Shown one piece after another: positions 6,981-57,663 of a stretch of DNA of 64,000 bases (positions within the stretch are counted from its first letter, which is position 1; every line of letters starts with the position of its first letter). The notes beneath the pieces were generated by a model, which was not told where the DNA came from, did not search any database, and was given only the letters and a program-made list of their open reading frames with translations. The translations under genes and the position numbers were made by a program. Source of the stretch: Natronobacterium gregoryi SP2 (GTDB lineage: Archaea > Halobacteriota > Halobacteria > Halobacteriales > Natrialbaceae); assembly GCF_000230715.2 (NCBI RefSeq), contig NC_019792.1, forward strand, positions 2,604,001 to 2,668,000. Direction: 5' to 3'.

Positions 6981-7100
6981 ATGAACGAACTCGCGTTCGT
7001 CGTCCTGGAAACGGAACTGCCGATGGGCATCGCTGGCTGGGGAACGCTTGCTCTCGGAGTGCTCGTGACGGCAGTCTGGCTGATTTACCTCTATCGGTAG
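6981..7100 (+). CDS. 39-residue single-pass membrane microprotein
   Basis: A very short gene reading MNELAFVVLETELPMGIAG and then one hydrophobic helix (WGTLALGVLVTAVWLIYLY) before an arginine and stop. An AT-rich box (GATTAAGAG) lies about 27 bp upstream. It is divergent from the ATP-NAD kinase gene. Base composition and codon third positions look coding. Function unknown; a small membrane subunit or leaderless microprotein is the best description. Confidence 0.6.
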   Translation: MNELAFVVLETELPMGIAGWGTLALGVLVTAVWLIYLYR

Positions 7101-7223
7101 TACCGTGCCGACCGTCGACCGATAGCCGAACCAGACGACAGGTATCGTCGCCGCTGTAAGTTCCTGCACGACTGTTCGTACGACGGCGTCGTGACTGGTG
7201 TACCGCTTTGGCGTCAGGGCACC

Positions 7224-7307
7224 TCATACGGTTTACTGTACGTCGTTTTCGGTGCAGCCGCTTCGGGTCGTGGTCGCACCGGTACATCGGTACAGCAATC
7301 CGTTTCA
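7224..7307. repeat. Palindromic element R2 (TGATACGG family)
   Basis: Copy 2. One end is TCATACGGTTTACTGTA and the other TACAGCAATCCGTTTCA. The inner arms GGTGCAGCCGC and GTGGTCGCACC pair imperfectly. The last three bases of the element (TCA, 7305-7307) are the stop codon TGA of the epimerase gene on the minus strand. Confidence 0.75.
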
Positions 7308-14545: not shown

Positions 14546-14631
14546 TGATACGGATTGCTGTACCGATTTACCGGCGCAACCGCCGCCCGGGTCGCGGTTG
14601 TGCCGGAAATGACCTACAGTAAACCGTATGA
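14546..14631. repeat. Palindromic element R3 (TGATACGG family)
   Basis: Copy 3: ends TGATACGGATTGCTGTA and TACAGTAAACCGTATGA; inner stem CCGGCGCAACCGC against GCGGTTGTGCCGG (12 of 13 matched, the exception a G-T pair). It lies between the divergent-side start of the sulfhydrylase gene and the small membrane gene at 14674. Confidence 0.8.
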
Positions 14632-17509: not shown

Positions 17510-17594
17510 TCATACGGATTGCTGTAACTATTTCCCGCCGATCGCCGACCCCGTTCTGGCGATCGGCGGTAATTGAATACAGCAAACCGTATCA
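17510..17594. repeat. Palindromic element R4 (TGATACGG family, GATCG-type core)
   Basis: Copy 4: ends TCATACGGATTGCTGTAA and TACAGCAAACCGTATCA. The inner stem is different in sequence from R1-R3 but perfect: CCGCCGATCGCC against GGCGATCGGCGG (12 bp). It lies between the three-helix membrane gene and nurA. Confidence 0.8.
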
Positions 17595-25972: not shown

Positions 25973-26069
25973 ACAGTCGATGCCTCTCTTCCAGTTCTCG
26001 CTGCGGTCGGCCCGAAAGCGACTGCCGAGTACCACGGACTGGCGTCGAGAACGGGTACCGTCGCGCTCT

Positions 26070-26153
26070 CGGACGGATTGCTGTAACTAGTTCCCGGCGA
26101 TCGCCGACCCTGTTCTGACAATCGGCGGTAATTAACTGCAGTAAACCGTATCA
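26070..26153. repeat. Palindromic element R5 (TGATACGG family, GATCG-type core)
   Basis: Copy 5: ends GGACGGATTGCTGTAA and GCAGTAAACCGTATCA; core CCGGCGATCGCC and GACAATCGGCGG, related to R4 but partly decayed. The terminal TCA (26151-26153) is the stop codon TGA of the lipoprotein pseudogene on the minus strand. Confidence 0.75.
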
Positions 26154-28678: not shown

Positions 28679-29701
28679 ATGAGCGACTCGGACTCGAGCG
28701 AAAGCAACGAGAACGAACGCCTCGGTGGACTGCGGCTCTGGGTGTTGCTCCGGGTAGATCGCTGGGTGCTCACTGGCATTATCCTGGCAGTCGTGTTCGC
28801 GATCCTCGTCACCACCAGCCGGATCGGCCTGACGCCGCTGCGGCTCATCGTCGAGAACCAGGACGGCCTCGAGTTCTTCTTCTCGGCGTTTATCGGCGCG
28901 ATCATCACCGGTACCTCGATCGTCGTCACGATCAACCAGCTCGTACTCTCCCAGGAGCTCGGCGCGGTCGGTCAGCAACGTGATCGGATGCAGGCAGCGA
29001 TGGACTTCCGCCAGACCGTCGAAGCCACGATCGACGCGGACGCGAGTCCGCCCGAGCCAGCGGCCTTCCTGTATGAACTCGTCGAGGGAATCCAGAAGCG
29101 TGCAACCGAACTCGAAGCGGAGATGGAAGACGAACGCGACGAGAAACTCAAAGGAAAAATCGGCGCCTACGTCGAGGACACGACGGACAACGCAGAGAGT
29201 GTCAAGGCAAACCTCGAGAACGCCCAGTTCGGTACGTTCGAGGTGATCTGGAACGCGTTGCAGTTCAACTATTCGCGAAAGATTTACGACGCGCGCAAGA
29301 TACGGGCAGATCACACGGAGTCGCTCTCTGAAGAAGCAAACGAGAAGATCGACCACGTGATCGAGACGCTGCGACTGTTTGGCCCGGCACGCGAGCACTT
29401 CAAGACGCTGTACTTCCAGTGGGAATTGATCAACCTCTCGCGGGCGTTGCTGTACATCTCGGTGCCCGCGTTGACCGCGATGGCCGTCCTGATCATGTAC
29501 GTCGACGGCAACGCCTTGCCGGGGACGACGCTGGGCATCGACAACCTGGTCTGGCTCGCGAGCCTGGGGTTCGTGATCGGTATCTCGCCGTTCGTCGTCT
29601 TCATCGTCTACATCCTCCGAATTGCGACGATCGCGAAGCGAACACTCGCAATGGGGCCGTTCATCCTGCGGGAGTCCGAACGCGACGAAGATCTGGGGTG
29701 A
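28679..29701 (+). CDS. Four-helix membrane protein, paralogue B
   Basis: 340 residues from ATG 28679 (MSDSDSSESNENERLGGL). Same architecture as the protein at 26860: two N-terminal helices with TGTSIVVTINQLVLSQELGA, a charged helical middle domain, AREHFKTLYFQWELINLS, and two C-terminal helices ending VYILRIATIAKRTLAMGP. The two genes flank the 27931-28500 membrane gene, so the three may form a functional cluster. Function unknown. Confidence 0.8.
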   Translation: MSDSDSSESNENERLGGLRLWVLLRVDRWVLTGIILAVVFAILVTTSRIGLTPLRLIVENQDGLEFFFSAFIGAIITGTSIVVTINQLVLSQELGAVGQQRDRMQAAMDFRQTVEATIDADASPPEPAAFLYELVEGIQKRATELEAEMEDERDEKLKGKIGAYVEDTTDNAESVKANLENAQFGTFEVIWNALQFNYSRKIYDARKIRADHTESLSEEANEKIDHVIETLRLFGPAREHFKTLYFQWELINLSRALLYISVPALTAMAVLIMYVDGNALPGTTLGIDNLVWLASLGFVIGISPFVVFIVYILRIATIAKRTLAMGPFILRESERDEDLG

Positions 29702-30305
29702 GCAGCAGAGAGCGGCGTTTCTCACCCGTCGCGTTCGCTGAGCGCAACGGATGGCAAAGCGAACGCTCGCAGTCGGCCACCACCTGGAAACAATCGAACC
29801 GTAGCGAGAACGGCAAGCAGGTGACCAATCCTCGACCCCCCGTCTGGGTTATGTCGGCCAGTTCCGGCGCACCCGCGTCCCAAGCGATTGCGTCGGGACA
29901 GCAGTACCACACTCCTGCCCACGCCGACCGTAACGACTCGACGCCGTCTCGGTCCTCGAGTGCCCCGAAAGGTGCTCGAGTCGGCCGTCGCTCGTCTAGT
30001 ACCGTCCCAACCGTCGACTGACGGGTCGAATCGAGCCACACCGCCAGATTCGACCCATCAGTTCAGGCTTGGCCCGCCACTAGTTCGAGGTTGTGGTCGG
30101 CAGGGTTCGGCAGTGTCCGATCGCCGCCACAACAGTGGCCGATACCGATCGATTCGCCGGCCCAGCGAAATCCGGGGTCGGTTCGACGACGTCGCCGACG
30201 TCGCGGCTGGGTCGATAGCGACGACGCCCCGTCAGACAAGTCGTGGGCGAGCGTTGCACACTACGGCGCGGAACTTACTTGAGAGTGAGAGTCTATACGC
30301 CAGGT
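29702..30305. other. Gene-free stretch with repeats and hairpins
   Basis: No convincing gene. It contains a repeat-like segment at 29857-29915 also seen near 33497, the first copy of a 30-bp exact repeat (29994-30023), and a 16-bp hairpin (ACTGACGGGTCGAATC at 30017-30032 with GATTCGACCCATCAGT at 30050-30065, one mismatch). Confidence 0.6.
29994..30023 (+). repeat. 30-bp exact repeat, copy 1
   Basis: Identical over 30 bp to 32842-32871; begins GTCTAGTACCGTCCCAACCG. Here it is followed by a 16-bp-stem hairpin. Confidence 0.85.
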
Positions 30306-31472
30306 ATGTCCAACGATGCACACGACGATGGAGCGTTCGACGAATACGGGGGTCGGCACGTTCCGGAACCGCTCGAGGGACCACTCGAGCAACTCGCTGG
30401 TGCCTACGACGACGTCGCGACGACCGAAGCGTTCCAGGCTGCCCTCCGAGGCCATCTCGAGTCGTTCGCCGGACGGCCGACGCCGCTTTACTACGCCGAA
30501 AACCTAAGCGAGCGTTACGGCGCGGAGATATACCTCAAACGCGAGGATCTGCTTCACGGCGGTGCCCACAAGATCAATAACGTGCTCGGACAGGCGTTGC
30601 TTGCCGAACGCACCGGCCGCGAGCGACTCATCGCGGAGACTGGGGCCGGCCAGCACGGCGTCGCGACCGCGATGGCCGGCGCGCTGTTCGACCTCGAAAC
30701 GGAGATCTACATGGGCAAAAAAGACGTCGAGCGCCAGGAGATGAACGTCTTCCGGATGCGCCTGCTGGGCGCGGATGTCACCGAAGTCACCCGCGGTGAC
30801 GCGGGACTCGCGGATGCCGTCGACGTCGCCCTCGAGGACTTCGCCGCGAACGTCGACGACACCCACTACCTCGTCGGCAGCGTCGTCGGTCCCGATCCCT
30901 TCCCGCGGATGGTCCGTGACTTCCAGTCGGTCATCGGCGACGAGGCCCGCGACCAGTTTCTCGAGCAAACGGGCGAGTTGCCCGACGCAGCGGTCGCCTG
31001 CGTCGGCGGCGGCTCGAACGCAATCGGGCTGTTCCACGCCTTCCGCGATGACGACCTCGAGTTCTACGGCGCTGAAGGTGGCGGGAAAGGCCCTGACTCG
31101 AGCAAACACGCCGCACCGCTCGCAAGCGGCACCGACGATGTCATCCACGGCATGAAGACGCGCGTGCTCGAGGACGACGTCGACGTCCACTCCGTCTCCG
31201 CCGGACTAGACTACCCCGGCGTCGGCCCCGAACACGCCATGTTCCGTGCAGTCGGCCGTTGTGAGTACACGGGCATCACCGACGAGGAAGCGCTTGCTGC
31301 GTTCCGGGAACTGAGCGAGACGGAAGGAATTATCCCAGCACTCGAGTCGAGTCACGGCGTCGCGCGGGCGATCCAACTCGCAGAGGCAGGCGACCACGAG
31401 ACGATTCTCGTCAACCTCTCGGGCCGGGGCGACAAGGACATGAAGACTGCAGCCTCGAAGTTCGACCTGTAG
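30306..31472 (+). CDS. trpB: Tryptophan synthase beta chain
   Basis: 388 residues. TrpB condenses indole with serine using PLP. The PLP lysine K89 is in GGAHKINN, catalytic E111 in [11 protein letters not shown], the phosphate-binding [10 protein letters not shown] near 235, and the C-terminal LSGRGDKDM serine-rich end is present. Sequence type is the TrpB1 (alpha-subunit-partnered) form, yet no trpA or trpC is adjacent. Start at ATG 30306 (MSNDAHDDG), about 25 bp after AT-rich sequence. Confidence 0.95.
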
Positions 31473-31496
31473 AGCGATCGACTACCCACCTCCGGG

Positions 31497-31712
31497 CTAC
31501 TGCAGCCGGTAGGGACTGTCGTCTTCATCGCCACTGTCTCCATTCTCGCTCTCGTAGGGTTTTCGAGCGGTGATCGTTACCGTCGCTTCCGGTTCGTCTT
31601 CGTCGGCCCACGGGCTGTCGTAGGCCGACATCTCGAGATCGGTTACGTCCCAGCCTTCCGCCTCGATGAGTTCGACGAGTCGCCGCTGGTCGTCGAGCAT
31701 CTCGTCGTCCAT
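31497..31712 (-). CDS. Small conserved acidic protein
   Basis: 71 residues from ATG 31712 (MDDEMLDDQRRLVELIEAEG). It has WDVTDLEMSAYDSPWADEDEP and a beta segment ATVTITARKPYESE. It looks like a haloarchaeal conserved hypothetical protein; no function. It converges with trpB. Confidence 0.7.
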   Translation of the reverse strand: MDDEMLDDQRRLVELIEAEGWDVTDLEMSAYDSPWADEDEPEATVTITARKPYESENGDSGDEDDSPYRLQ

Positions 31713-31842
31713 ACACCCTGTTCGGGACGGGAAAGAGTAGTTGTTACGCACTCGTTTCAGCCCACAAAACGAAACCCAAAATGGTTACTAGTGCCGGGAA
31801 ATACCCGGCGAGTTTAAGCGGATCCATCTGCAAGGCCGTAGT

Positions 31843-32847
31843 ATGCTCACCGACGAGTTCGGGCGCGAGGTGACGGGGGTACGCATCTCGCTGACGGATC
31901 GGTGCAACTTCGATTGTATCTACTGTCACAACGAGGGGCTCGGTGATACCCGCGGCCCGATGGACCCACAGGACGCCGAGATGAGTACGGACGATGTCGT
32001 ACGATTTCTCGAGGTCGTTACCGAGTTCGACGTCGATGCGGTCAAGTTCACTGGTGGCGAGCCGATGCTCCGACAGGATTTAGCGGAGATCATCGCGCGC
32101 ACGCCGGACGAACTGGAAGTGTCGCTGACGACTAACGGTACCTTCCTCCCCGGCCGTGCCGAAGACCTCGTCGACGCTGGCCTCGAGCGGGTCAACGTCT
32201 CCCAGGACGCGCTCGATGCCGAGGACTTTGCGGCAGTCACCCAGAGTGGCGCGTACGAACGGGTTCTAGAGGGCGTCGATGCCGCTCTCGACGCCGGCCT
32301 AGACCCCATCAAGCTCAACATGGTCGTCTTCGAGCACACTGCGGGTTATATCCCCGAGATGGTCGACCACGTCGCGGAAAACGACGGCCTGCAACTACAA
32401 CTCATCGAGTATATGCCCGAACTCACCGGCAGGCCCGAGTGGAACATCGACATCGAGCGCGTTCACGACTGGCTGGCAGAGCAAGCAGACGAGATCGAAC
32501 ACCGAGAGATGCACAATCGCCGGCGCTACTGGATTGGCGAAAGCGACTCGAGTGACGATCCAAACGCCGGCCGTGGGATGGTCGAAATCGTCGATCCCGT
32601 CGAGAACGCGACGTTCTGCCAGAACTGTCACCGCGTTCGAGTGACCCACGAAGGCTACCTGAAAGGCTGTCTCAACCGGAACGACGACCTCCGGACGATG
32701 GGGGAAATGACCAAACCCGAGATTCGTGAGACGTTCCGAGAGACCGTCGAGAACCGCGTCCCCTACTACGGCGAGTACATGATCGAGAACGGCGACGGCG
32801 AGTGGGAGATCGACGAAAAGTACATCGAGAAATCGGTGCAGGTCTAG
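31843..32847 (+). CDS. moaA: GTP 3',8-cyclase MoaA
   Basis: 334-residue radical SAM enzyme catalysing the first step of molybdopterin synthesis. The N-terminal cluster cysteines are C21, C25 and C28 (CNFDCIYC); the C-terminal second cluster uses C259, C262 and C276 (CQNCHRVRV to KGCL). GGEP (71-74) binds SAM. The C-terminal GG pair of bacterial MoaA is absent; the protein ends SVQV. The stop codon lies inside a 30-bp repeat shared with 29994. A GAGTTTAAG box lies about 27 bp upstream. Confidence 0.93.
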
Positions 32848-32871
32848 TACCGTCCCAACCGTCGACTGACG
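32842..32871 (+). repeat. 30-bp exact repeat, copy 2, containing the moaA stop
   Basis: Identical to 29994-30023. The TAG at 32845-32847 is the moaA stop. Together with AGTCGACGGTCGGCCGGTAC (about 32890-32909) it makes an imperfect hairpin with a stem of about 20 bp, a possible transcript-end structure. Confidence 0.8.
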
Positions 32872-33109
32872 TCCAGTGGCTCCGACACTAGTCGACGGTC
32901 GGCCGGTACAGCCCGCTGCACCGGCCACGCGGCCCTTTCGTCTTCTTTACAGGCTATCGAGGCGACTGCTCCGGGGCTTGATCCCGAGGGGGCTCACCAA
33001 CAGGTGGACTACAGCCGTATTAGCGGTACCTGACTGTGTGGTTCGCCTCGACTCCTACCGACTGGGAACAGGGCTTGTTGATAAATCGACGCCCACTCTA
33101 CGTTCGTCT

Positions 33110-40641: not shown

Positions 40642-41526
40642 ATGATTCCACTCAAGACGTTCGTCTCGGAGCGTCGCGCCGCGAACCTGCTCCGACAGGT
40701 TCGCTGGCGTGACGGCGTCTATTGCCCACGCTGCCGTGCCGAATCCGCGATTCGGTACGGCAGCTATCGGGTGTTTCAGCGATATCGCTGTAAGAATTGC
40801 GACCGCACGTTCACCGATCAGACCGGCACCGTCTTTGAACACTCAGCGGTCGAACTCAGGAAGTGGTTTCTCGCCGTCTACACCTACATCCGCTTCAACA
40901 CCAGTCTTCGGCAGTTAGACGTAGAGATTGATGTCTCCTACAAAACAGTGTACCGGCGCGTCCAGCGCTTCCTGCGAGCGCTGGACGCGCCTCAGCCACA
41001 ACTCGAAGGACCAGTCGAGATTGACGAACTGTACGTGAAAGCCGGACTCAAAGGCCGCGAGCGCGACCGTCCGTCGCGCTCGCGTGGCCTATCCACGCGC
41101 GGAAGAGGATCGTACGAACAGGACAAGCTACCCGTGTTCATTCTGGCTGATCGCGGCACTGGCGACCGCTACGTGATCCCAGCGAAAGCCGCTGATGAAT
41201 CGACGATTCGACTCCTCCTTGCTGACCGTAAAGAGGAGTGGCTCACGGTCTATACCGACGGCTTTCGAGCGTACGAACCGCTTGATGAGGACGACGCATT
41301 CGACCGCGAATACGTCGTCCACGGCGACGGCGAATACGCCGATGGAGACGTTCACGTCAATACCTGCGAGAGCCACGGATCGCTGGCGCGATCCTGGCTC
41401 TCGCCCCATCGAGGCGTCTCCAAGGACAAGCTCACGCCGTATCTCCGAGCCTTCCAGCTCCGTCGCCGCGTGTATCGAAAACCGGGAAAAGAAGCGCTGA
41501 AAACCATCCTCAAAACTGCGCTATGA
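40642..41526 (+). CDS. IS1595-family transposase
   Basis: 294 residues from ATG 40642 (MIPLKTFVSERRAANLLRQV). Zinc ribbon YCPRCRAES to YRCKNCDRTF (four Cys), then the ISXO2-like DDE core with VEIDELYVKAG, VYTDGFRAY and HVNTCESHGSLARSWL. The start was chosen because the second IS1595 copy gives exactly the same length from its equivalent ATG, and because upstream in-frame sequence is a hairpin. Intact, probably active or recently active. Confidence 0.93.
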   Translation: MIPLKTFVSERRAANLLRQVRWRDGVYCPRCRAESAIRYGSYRVFQRYRCKNCDRTFTDQTGTVFEHSAVELRKWFLAVYTYIRFNTSLRQLDVEIDVSYKTVYRRVQRFLRALDAPQPQLEGPVEIDELYVKAGLKGRERDRPSRSRGLSTRGRGSYEQDKLPVFILADRGTGDRYVIPAKAADESTIRLLLADRKEEWLTVYTDGFRAYEPLDEDDAFDREYVVHGDGEYADGDVHVNTCESHGSLARSWLSPHRGVSKDKLTPYLRAFQLRRRVYRKPGKEALKTILKTAL

Positions 41527-41620: not shown

Positions 41621-42810
41621 TCCATCAGAAATCATAATGATCAAGATAACTTTTGCAAATATGGACTGAGGAACTGGTCGATCCAAGACTTGGCGAATCC
41701 AAGTCGATCGGTGAGGGTGTTGAAGAGGCGGCGAGCGAGAGTGCGGAACGCGCTCTCGCTCGCCACGACGATTGGTGAAGCATTCCGTTTGAGCACTTTC
41801 CAGACCTGCTCGATTGGATTGAGATGCGGTGAACCGACCGGAAGAAAGACGAGATCGATACCGAGTTGATGTGCGCGCTTGCGCGTGTGCTCACAGATGT
41901 GAGACGAGAAGTTGTCCAAGACGAGCAGAATCCGCGTTCCCGGATTCTGCTCGCGGACCTCCTCCAATGGGGCACAGATGTTCTCTTTCGATTGATCTTC
42001 AGGAAAGGTCAGGACACTTTCGCCGTTGAGCGTATAGCACCCGACCGCTGGTTCGTCAAGCTTCACCAGCGGTCGTTCGAGTGTCGGATCATCGACGTAC
42101 CACAGTCGATGCGAATTGTCGTATGGTTGCGGATGAGAAGCGTCACAAAAACCGACGACAGTTCCTCCATCTGTACAGATATCGTCGTCGAGAACCCAGC
42201 CTTCGTCCTCATCCTCGGGACGCTTGTTATGTGCTGTCTCTGTTTCCTCGTCGAACGCGTCTGCGACGCGTTCTTCGAGGATTTCATCTGCATTTTCTGG
42301 CCGTGAGGGACGTTTTGGACGTGGTTTAGCGTAAGACAGTCCGAGATTCCGGAGGAATCGACCGAGATAATCCGGATGGTACTCAACATCGAACTCTTCG
42401 TCCAAGAGCTGGTGAACTTCCTGTGCTTTCCAGGGCTGTCCCTCCCGGAGAAGTTCTAGAAGACACTCTTGTTCCTCGTCACCGAGCTTCGGGGGCCTTC
42501 CGCCCCCGAAGTTCGGTGTCAACTGACCCAGCCCGCCATCGTTCCATCGACGTGCCCAGCGACTTCCAGTCGACGCAGATTTCCCAACGTCGTCGGCTGC
42601 TTCTTCGTACGTTGCACCCTTGTAGAGACGTTTGACAAAGGTGAGCCGCTTGACGACCTTTGGATCGTCTGCTTCGTCCAGCAGACGATCCAACTCCTCC
42701 TCGCTCAGATGACGAACGAGCTCGCCCCGCCGGTCTCCTCCCATTACCCCGTTCGTCTTAGCCCACGCCCAAAACTTCTGTCACTCATTACGATTTCTGA
42801 TACTGATGGA
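41621..42810 (-). mobile_element. IS630-family insertion sequence A
   Basis: About 1.19 kb. The ends share TCCATCAG followed (after a 6-bp TATCAG spacer on one side) by CAGAAATCRTAATGA in inverted orientation at 41621-41640 and 42785-42810. Exact TA target duplication could not be fixed by eye. Confidence 0.75.
41641..42744 (-). CDS. IS630-family transposase A
   Basis: 367 residues. An N-terminal HTH (YEEAADDVGKSASTGSRWAR), winged-helix-like linker GGRPPKLGDEEQ, and a DDE core: VVGFCDASHPQ, ILLVLDNFSSH and PVGSPHLNPIEQVWK. Complete from ATG 42744 to TAA, consistent with a functional Tc1/mariner-like transposase. Confidence 0.9.
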   Translation of the reverse strand: MGGDRRGELVRHLSEEELDRLLDEADDPKVVKRLTFVKRLYKGATYEEAADDVGKSASTGSRWARRWNDGGLGQLTPNFGGGRPPKLGDEEQECLLELLREGQPWKAQEVHQLLDEEFDVEYHPDYLGRFLRNLGLSYAKPRPKRPSRPENADEILEERVADAFDEETETAHNKRPEDEDEGWVLDDDICTDGGTVVGFCDASHPQPYDNSHRLWYVDDPTLERPLVKLDEPAVGCYTLNGESVLTFPEDQSKENICAPLEEVREQNPGTRILLVLDNFSSHICEHTRKRAHQLGIDLVFLPVGSPHLNPIEQVWKVLKRNASPIVVASESAFRTLARRLFNTLTDRLGFAKSWIDQFLSPYLQKLS

Positions 42811-42846: not shown

Positions 42847-43868
42847 ATGGCGACGTTGGAGAACGTCTCTGTCGAAGACCTCCGCCAGATCTTGGCGGAG
42901 GTCGATGATGCCGATGCAACAAAGCGGCTCATGGCCGCGATCACCTACAAAGAGATAGAAGATCTAACGCAAGCAGAAGCCGCCGCACTCTATGGATTTT
43001 CCAGCAGTTGGGCCTCGAAATGGTTCAATCGACTCGAACGGCTCGCCGACGAGCCGTTCGAGGAGGTCGTCTACGACAAACCACGAGAGGGCAGACCATC
43101 CGAACTCTCTGACGACGAGCACGAGCAGTTTGTTGAGGTACTTCACGAGTCTCCCGAAGACGTTGGATACGACGCGCCCGCGTGGTCTGTTTCACTAGCG
43201 CGTCACTATCTCTCCGAAGAATTCGGTGTTGAGTACTGCGAACGTCACGTCCGACGACTGATGTCCGAGGCCGGGCTGTCCTGGAAGACAGCCCGGCCGG
43301 AGTTCCACAAGTCCGACGAACGAGCCCAAGAGGCCTGGAAAGAAGGGTTCAAAAAAAGCGCGACAACTTGGACGATGAATACACGATCCTGACCATCGAT
43401 CAGACGCGACAGGTTCTCTCGACGCTGATCTACGCGTGGTTTCCAGAAGGGGAGCGCCCGTCACTCCCGGTGACGGGCGCGTGGGACAGCATCAAACTCC
43501 TCGGGGCAGTCAGCAATAGCGGCGAGACGTTCTTTCTCCTGTGTGAGGAGAATTTCAACAGCGACACCACAATCCGGTTGCTCGACGCTCTCCAAACCGA
43601 GTTCGGCGAGAAAATCTGCGTTGTCTTAGATAATGCCTCCTATTTTACGGCGAACAAGGTGCAGGCATTCGCCGAAGGAACTCCGATCGAACTGTGTTAC
43701 CTTCCACGGGGTTCACCAGAGCTGAACCCCGTGGAAGAGTGCTGGCGACGACTCAATCAAGCACTCGGCAACCGCTTGTTCAACACACTGGATGAACTTC
43801 AAGAGGCTGCACTGACCGCGCTTGACGACATCGAACCGCCGAATGTCTTTACGTACTTATGTCCTTGA
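42847..43868 (+). CDS. IS630-family transposase B, two frames joined at an A7 tract
   Basis: Frame 1 (ATG 42847 to TGA 43392) carries the HTH part: ITYKEIEDLTQAEAAALYGF, then YCERHVRRLMSEAGLSWKTA. Frame 2 (reading in from the A7 run at 43351-43357 to 43868) carries the DDE core: TILTIDQTRQ, CVVLDNASYF and PRGSPELNPVEECWR. A -1 shift in GGG-TTC-AAA-AAA-AGC gives FKKKRDNLDDEYTILTIDQT, the expected IS630 join, and a full-length protein of about 340 residues. Both halves are otherwise intact, so programmed frameshifting or slippage on A7 is plausible; a simple indel mutation is the alternative. Confidence 0.8.
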
Positions 43869-56778: not shown

Positions 56779-57663
56779 TCAGAGAACAGTTCGAACGATG
56801 TCTTTCAGGGCTTTTCGACCGGGTTTGCGTAGGATTTTCCGACGAAATTCGAAGAGTCTGAGATACGTGGTGAGTTTGTCCTTCGAGATACCTCGATGCG
56901 GCGAGAGCCACCGTCGCGCCAGCGACGCGTGGCTCTCGCACGTATTCACGTGTACATCTCCATCAACGTACTCTCCCTCGCCGTGAATAACCGCTTCTCG
57001 CTGGTACGTTTCGTCCGTCTCTAACGGGTCGTAGGCACGAAAGCCGTCGGTATAGACTGTCAGCGACTCCTCCTCGTGGGAATCGAGGAGGAGTCGCACA
57101 GCCGATTCGTCGGCGGATTTCGACGGGATGACGTATCGCTGATCGCTACCGCGATCAACGAGGACAAACACAGGTGGCTTGTCTTCGTCGTAGTTTCCTC
57201 TGCCACGTTTCGAGAGACCACGCGAGCGCGACTCCTGGTCGCGCTCGCGGCCTTTCTTTCCGGCAGAAACGTAGAACTCATCGATCTCGACGGGGCCAAC
57301 GAGATCGAGCTGAGGCGCGTCGAGCGTTCTGGCGAAACGCTCGACGCGCCGGTGAAGCGATCGGTAGGAGACGTCAATTTCAGCGTCTAACTGGCGGATA
57401 CTCGTGTTGAATCGGAGCAACGAGTAGAACGCGAACAACAGCTTGTCAAGGCCGATCTTCGCGTGCGCGAAGATCGTGCCGGTCTTGTCGTTGAACGTGC
57501 GTCCACAATTTTTACAGCGATACCGCTGATACTCTCGATAGCTGCCGTACTTGATCACCGATTCAGACTGGCAGCGCGGGCACTGGAGGCCCTCGCGCCA
57601 GCGAACCTGCTCCAGCAGGTTCGCGGCGCTCGCCTCTGAGCGAAACACTTCAACTGGGAACAT
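56779..57663 (-). CDS. IS1595-family transposase, second copy
   Basis: 294 residues from ATG 57663 (MFPVEVFRSEASAANLLEQV). Zinc ribbon CPRCQSES to YRCKNCGRTF, and a DDE core with VEIDEFYVSAG, VYTDGFRAYD and HVNTCESHASLARRWL. A longer in-frame reading from 57687 would translate the hairpin and is rejected. Same length as the transposase at 40642 although the sequences differ throughout. Confidence 0.93.
   Translation of the reverse strand: MFPVEVFRSEASAANLLEQVRWREGLQCPRCQSESVIKYGSYREYQRYRCKNCGRTFNDKTGTIFAHAKIGLDKLLFAFYSLLRFNTSIRQLDAEIDVSYRSLHRRVERFARTLDAPQLDLVGPVEIDEFYVSAGKKGRERDQESRSRGLSKRGRGNYDEDKPPVFVLVDRGSDQRYVIPSKSADESAVRLLLDSHEEESLTVYTDGFRAYDPLETDETYQREAVIHGEGEYVDGDVHVNTCESHASLARRWLSPHRGISKDKLTTYLRLFEFRRKILRKPGRKALKDIVRTVL

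Follow-up and report, generated by a model that had tools for sequence, protein, structure and literature searches.

Why should the stop codon of a moaA-like gene lie inside a sequence that is repeated elsewhere in the same genome? The question is raised by a window (the whole stretch that we analysed) of 64,000 nucleotides from Natronobacterium gregoryi SP2, in which the 30-mer GTCTAGTACCGTCCCAACCGTCGACTGACG occurs exactly at 29994-30023 and at 32842-32871. The window is positions 2604001-2668000 of a genome of 3,788,356 bp in one contig. A sequence-only reading of the window had proposed a mobile or recombinogenic element that supplies a stop codon. The mobile part of this proposal stands: some congeners have the site without the unit, the units are bordered by CTAG, and relatives carry IS630 insertion sequences whose ends are the same. 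We think it very probable that the repeat is the left terminal inverted repeat of miniature inverted-repeat transposable elements (MITEs) of the IS630 (Tc1/mariner-like) type, which insert at CTAG and were moved by an IS630-group transposase. The supply of a stop codon does not stand, as moaA stops at the same codon in four congeners that lack the element.

A family of CTAG-bounded palindromes

With up to three mismatches allowed, the 30-mer matches the host genome in 101 places (49 on the forward strand and 52 on the reverse; three are exact), against none for the same pattern read backwards, so the repeat is real. Its leading GT is flanking sequence that agrees by chance: the first two bases vary among the listed copies, so the repeat proper begins at CTAG (29996 and 32844). 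As had been noticed from the sequence, no gene is predicted around the first copy (the neighbouring frames are one that ends at 29701 and a trpB-like frame that starts at 30306), and the moaA-like frame ends within the second copy, which spans its final GTC codon and its TAG (32845-32847). The two copies are the left arms of two different hairpins, which RNA folding confirmed (-41.2 kcal/mol, z -7.8, and -31.8 kcal/mol, z -3.6).

The first copy opens a complete unit on the forward strand (29996..30083), which has 88 bp including both CTAG borders (29996-29999 and 30080-30083). This unit is of the type that we call A. It is identical to the genome consensus and forms a long imperfect hairpin whose centre is between bases 44 and 45. 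The copy at moaA opens a unit of 68 bp, also on the forward strand (32844..32911), that has an exact 28-bp A-type left end and is shortened, decayed, or mosaic.

For a broader view of the family, we merged the stretches that we fetched, the other loci, and the window into a sample of 108 blocks (447,706 bp). Apart from the window, these blocks were chosen around A-type ends and IS630 matches, so occupancies are inflated and only their ratios are meaningful; arrays with only B units or only C units are under-sampled. Counting both CTAGs, the reference units of types A and B have 88 bp and that of type C has 110 bp. All are palindromic, and they repeat with a period of 84 bp (A and B) or 106 bp (C). 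The sample holds 234 units (by best match, 132 A, 55 B, and 47 C) in 121 arrays, of which 48 are single, 41 double, and 25 triple, while six have four units and one has five. CTAG is found exactly on both sides of 74 of the 121 arrays, and neighbouring units share exactly one CTAG at 103 of 113 junctions. Genome-wide, the B end matches 72 places and the C core 63, and the reversed controls match none. Among full-length copies that are over 85% identical and of the commonest length, two copies differ on average by 5.0% in type A (91 copies), by 4.9% in B (47 copies), and by 8.5% in C (36 copies), and 13 A copies equal the consensus. As expected of MITEs, the units are short, present in many copies (101, 72, and 63 places), and carry no transposase gene: the A, B, and C consensuses allow at most about 29-36 codons in any frame.

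The window gave no Rfam match at the gathering cut-off, and we take a mir-250 match on the moaA hairpin (29.7 bits, against a cut-off of 58) to be an artefact of hairpin shape. Another stretch, at 7095-7124, is 73% identical to the 30-mer and forms a poor hairpin (z -0.8); it is either a decayed copy or chance.

Some units can be compared with sites that lack them. The cleanest empty site is inside the gene for a DUF7260 protein, where congener G004 reads GAAGACAAACTAGCCGCG and the host reads GAAGACAAA, CTAG plus 84 bp, and CCGCG. The host protein is thus 28 residues longer at this point than its G004 orthologue, to which it is 91% identical over residues 73-305. Similarly, a frame at genome position 2165115, which has no Pfam match, contains 28 additional residues that are absent from congener G003 (68% identical over residues 1-111). 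CTAG on both sides together with a CTAG empty site fits a duplication of TA, and a four-base duplication would look identical. Both of these arrays inside genes are unit A in its only stop-free frame: when A, B, and C are read on either strand in three frames, stops are absent from just one of the 18 readings, that of A forward in the frame CTA. From these two cases, there is a weak suggestion that other insertions inside genes were purged. The Rickettsia palindromic elements are short palindromes that lie in frame in protein genes, according to PMC10969869 and PMC2229807. In contrast, in-frame insertion is rare here (two of 74 clean arrays).

Ends shared with IS630 insertion sequences

Which transposase might have moved these units? 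The 25-base end (up to three mismatches) is found in 19 of 80 genomes, including the host. All 19 belong to the host's family, which is represented by 49 genomes, and the 31 genomes from outside this family do not have it. In three genomes, the end belongs to an insertion sequence (L217 in G020, L218 in G044, and L219 in G043). The left end of these elements is CTAGTACCGTCCCAA(C/T)CGTGGACAGCTAG, with the shorter form CTAGTACCGTCCCAA(C/T)CGTGGACAG, their right end is ..GACGCTTGGGAAG(C/G)TACTAG, with the shorter form ..CTTGGGAAG(C/G)TACTAG, and transposase frames lie between the ends. L217 and L218 have two overlapping frames around a run of seven As (A7), and the L219 copy is further broken. 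The first frame of L217 has helix-turn-helix domains, and the second scores 96.5 bits with DDE_3 (cut-off 28.6) and 150 bits with the IS630 model of NCBIfam, NF033545 (cut-off 100). So our units share their terminal inverted repeats with insertion sequences that encode an IS630 transposase, and this is why we consider them to be IS630-type MITEs.

We found transposase matches in 13 of the 80 genomes and inspected the left ends of 19 loci with such matches for a CTAGT start at the expected distance. The L217-type copies have this start, and five more distant copies (L240, L241, L244, L245, and L250; 61-72% identical) also begin with CTAGT. There was no such start at the expected distance for L238, L239, L242, L243, L246, L247, L251, and L253; some of these matches are truncated. 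At L219, L249, and L246, a unit with the 84-bp period directly follows the insertion sequence and shares a CTAG with it.

We propose that the ends CTAGTACCGTCCCAA..CGTCGACTG are the recognition sites of an IS630-group transposase that related haloarchaea still have. A unit would insert at the TA of CTAG and the TA would be duplicated, which would give CTAG on both sides. Because the regenerated CTAG would be a new target, repeated insertion would yield chains of units that share one CTAG.

Several observations weigh against this explanation. Only six of the 19 genomes with the end gave a transposase match. For the host itself, a protein search for the L217-type transposase gave no matches at E ≤ 1e-20, and in the host stretches that we fetched the best transposase match had an E value of 0.9, with a positive control that does match. 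A partner transposase in the same genome is usual for MITEs, although it is not required, and these searches found none in the host. We also considered the IS630-type copies that the host does have. It has 19 matches to DDE_3 (PF13358), and we read the ends of eight IS630-type copies (L061-L064 and L066-L069) but not of all the others; these eight have ends of the form (T)GATACT.., CATACT.., or TAATGA.., which are unrelated to those of the repeat, so they are not the partner. As for the borders, in 47 of the 121 arrays CTAG is damaged or missing on at least one side. This holds for the moaA unit: its right border is CAG in place of CTAG, and a host search with its right half gave no other match. 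Also, the site at 2165115 reads CTGATC in G003, not CTAG. It seems that the partner transposase was lost from the host.

The nearest parallel, judged by description, is RUP (repeat unit of pneumococcus) with IS630-Spn1. RUP is an intergenic MITE of 107 bp, with 108 copies, IS630-Spn1-like ends, and TA at the target (PMC2229807). RUP comes from another domain of life, and the haloarchaeal units differ from it in that they insert at CTAG, form chains that share CTAG, are of several types, and have no partner transposase that we could find in their host. Furthermore, one of the haloarchaeal types has a stop-free frame, whereas RUP is said to have stops in all six (PMC2229807). IS630 of Shigella and ISY100 (IS630/Tc1/mariner) insert at TA and duplicate it (PMC2170065), and the same paper cites Tenzen and Ohtsubo 1991, by its title a report that an IS630-associated composite transposon prefers TA in 5'-CTAG-3'. 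These are autonomous elements, while the units described here carry no transposase. Among haloarchaea, Haloquadratum walsbyi has MITEs, some of them without a working partner, and it has the repeats SMR-A and SMR-B, which are about 80-110 bp long, have inverted terminal repeats, and reach up to 54 copies (PMC3119063). SMRs are described as having no target duplication and ends that are unrelated to any transposon, and SMR-A targets IS605-type elements (PMC3119063); our units share their ends with an IS630 element and have CTAG on both sides, and so are not SMRs. Finally, MITEPsy1 of Pseudomonas syringae has 100 nt and inserts at CTAG or YTAA with duplication, but it is a proposed derivative of ISPsy2, of the IS5 family (PMC3189936), and our units share IS630 ends. 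Among the literature matches listed, from a collection that lacks most subscription papers, we saw no description of this CTAG family in the parts available. If our explanation is correct, then a class of unexplained haloarchaeal repeats can be understood as IS630-type MITEs.

Two side observations concern IS630-type transposases. The A7 run in L217 and L218 is at CTAAAAAAACGACC, and the split of the transposase over two overlapping frames at this point suggests programmed frameshifting in an archaeal insertion sequence. And in the window, IS630-type transposases of two different kinds were matched at neighbouring positions, 41776-42150 and 43419-43802. Where we read their ends, these are unlike those of the repeat family, and the same two kinds adjoin near genome positions 1774287-1775977.

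Gene context and the inner hairpin

Where do the arrays sit? Genes were called with a home-made codon-usage finder that was trained on 36 ORFs of the window, and the 47 arrays without clean CTAG borders were excluded from the site classes. With the units removed in silico, 22 of the 74 clean arrays are on a predicted stop codon, 50 are between genes, and two are inside genes. In the same blocks, the unoccupied CTAGs number 13 at stops, 105 between genes, and 105 inside genes, and their density is 0.50 per kb as compared to 3.5 expected from base composition. Expressed as the fraction of CTAGs that are filled, occupancy is 22/35 at stops, 11/23 between convergent genes, 31/77 between tandem genes, 7/44 between divergent genes, 1/11 at block edges, and 2/107 inside genes.

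Stop codons are filled more often than other intergenic CTAGs (22/35 versus 50/155, odds ratio 3.55, P = 0.001). Nevertheless, we do not think that the targeting of stop codons is a separate mechanism, as stop and convergent sites did not differ significantly at three of four gene-call settings (P = 0.29, 0.12, and 0.30; P = 0.01 at the strictest). For convergent versus divergent sites, the same four settings gave P = 0.008, 0.06, 0.008, and 0.20. We infer that units inserted into CTAG and that those in genes and promoters were later lost, which gave this distribution.

The same gradient, in which occupancy falls from stop to convergent to tandem to divergent sites, might instead arise if the hairpins are kept as working 3'-end elements (for termination, mRNA processing, or stability), so that selection explains their position at stops. 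The hairpins are stable as RNA. But because stop and convergent sites are not distinguished at three settings, simple purging from genes and promoters suffices, and congeners do without the element at the same sites (see below).

Covariation in the inner stem is a further argument for such a function. We compared 17 units: A, B, and 15 of the 16 distinct units from relatives (L223 was omitted because it is nearly identical to L222). The 13 pairs of the inner stem (columns 25-37 with 52-64) are paired in 90% of cells. Double-sided changes occur in 31 of 221 cells, as compared to 12.2 in shuffles (none of 500 shuffles reached 31), and the covariation score is 0.357, as compared to 0.149 in shuffles and at most 0.133 when the stem is slid; these shuffles ignore the relatedness of the units. 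Two other measures are not outstanding: seven pairs have changes on both sides, which 39 of 500 shuffles reach, and the 11 further pair types do not exceed the shuffles (424 of 500 reach 11). In the outer arms, the same mismatches recur across genera; for example, positions 18 and 71, which face each other, are both G in 17 of 18 units. An IS630 transposase is not known to need an inner hairpin that is kept, so the inner hairpin may have a use of its own. On the other hand, the covariation could stem from the relatedness of the sequences, from hairpin-templated repair, or from separate master copies. Overall, it seems unlikely to us that 3'-end function accounts for where the units are.

A related idea is that a lost IS630 transposase seeded over 200 CTAG-bounded hairpins, many of them behind stops, and that those that ended transcripts well were kept, so that the family has become a domesticated system of 3'-end hairpins. 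We give this only a small chance. If it were true, selection would explain both the inner-stem covariation across genera and the peak of occupancy at TAG stops, and unit A, with 28 codons in its one stop-free frame, would also be an in-frame peptide insert.

REP and BIME sequences of enterobacteria consist of many palindromic units, form mosaic arrays near the 3' ends of genes, and are moved by Y1 (RAYT) transposases. Could our units be REP/BIME-like, or IS200/IS605-like, with a Y1 transposase (RAYT or TnpA) that moves them as a single strand and CTAG as the cleavage tetranucleotide? The palindromes with conserved mismatches, the tetranucleotide at the foot, and the mosaic arrays in two orientations do resemble BIMEs (compare PMC2817692). 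However, the insertion sequences of relatives with the same two ends encode an IS630 DDE transposase, which sets them apart from REP/BIME, and both borders are CTAG, as IS630 insertion predicts. We consider this alternative very improbable.

Stop codons with and without a unit, and other repeats in the window

Did the unit at moaA alter the end of the gene? The moaA-like frame (31843..32847, forward strand) has 334 codons plus the stop. Its name is that of the sequence-only reading, and it contains CxxxCxxC, which we take to be the radical-SAM motif. The TAG (32845..32847, forward strand) is inside the left CTAG border of the unit. In the four congeners, moaA ends at the same codon, with GCC TAG in G001 and G002, GTT TAG in G003, and GCG TGA in G004, and neither end of the element is present within five substitutions at these loci. 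The C-terminal peptide of the host matches those of the congeners (EKYLEESVRA, EKYLEESVRV, and EKYIEDSIRA). More broadly, none of 80 named moaA loci has the left end within five substitutions. The moaA tails of G002 and G004 agree with those of two named loci, L081 (Halobiforma haloterrestris) and L099 (Halobiforma nitratireducens), as far as the compared letters extend, and this agreement indicates the genus.

Other sites tell the same story. We searched the congeners with the first five of 12 joined sites (1,621 nt; positions that follow are genome positions). Without an element, the site at 988929 reads GGG TAG in G001 and G002, GGC TAA in G003, and GGT TGA in G004. The site at 3244686, where the gene is on the minus strand, has no element either and reads TTA (that is, TAA) in G004 and TCA (TGA) in G001 and G002. 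The site at 1663295, again without an element, reads CTC TAA in G001 and CTG TAA in G002. Thus, at all four sites that can be compared (moaA, 988929, 1663295, and 3244686), the stop predates the element or is independent of it. At 1092042, the CTAG is occupied in G003 as well, and the insertion may therefore be common to G003 and the host.

G003 has a unit at 1663295 too (C3:72697). It differs from that of the host, although both occupy the CTAG at the stop codon of orthologous genes. This suggests either that the two species acquired their units independently at one site or that one unit replaced another.

Since each side of the unit retains a CTAG, the stop survives the insertion. CTAG is rare, but a gene that ends in NNC TAG contains one as a matter of course, and many insertions would therefore fall on an existing TAG and leave the protein unchanged. 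Where two convergent genes end on one CTAG, both stops would be kept after insertion; at 1092042 and 1663295, two convergent predicted genes do end on one CTAG, and both stops are kept.

We can now return to the idea of a mobile or recombinogenic element with a stop codon of its own, by which genes such as moaA would be truncated or given a new end. It would fit with the 22 of 74 clean arrays that abut a TAG stop and with the higher occupancy of stop CTAGs than of other intergenic ones, and 17 of the 18 readings into A, B, and C do meet a stop within the unit or at its borders. But an insertion that keeps CTAG requires a TAG that was already there, and at the four comparable sites, congeners without the element stop at the same codon. 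So we find this idea hardly credible. As for chance, or a duplication of two copies with no element behind it, the window has just two exact copies, but the 101 genome places against none for the reversed control refute this.

These results show how an element that targets CTAG would gather on stop codons while proteins remain unchanged, and they are a caution for annotation: a repeat that includes a stop codon need not have made that stop. The filled and empty sites, including the convergent pairs on one CTAG and the two in-frame insertions, are a set with which 3' hairpins and 28-residue inserts could be tested in archaeal genes.

Downstream of unit A is the trpB-like frame (30306..31472, forward strand). 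It was predicted by our home-made gene finder, and its name is that of the sequence-only reading.

The repeat at moaA had also been likened to a second family in the window, with ends TGATACGG. The resemblance goes no further than that both are short palindromic repeats. They differ in sequence, and some CTAG arrays are nested in the TGATACGG elements. These palindromes are about 84-86 nt long, with ends TGATACGG(T/A)TT.CTGTA (three substitutions allowed). They are found in the window at 7224-7307, 14546-14631, 17510-17594, and 26069-26153, and there are single ends at 650, 54384, and 58528. By flank reading, CTAG arrays are nested at a AACTAGTT-like spot of these elements in at least four sampled places (genome positions 189409, 954134, 2706812, and 3162534). 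The window also contains an inverted repeat of 824 nt, 73% complementary, at 40642-41465 and 56840-57663.

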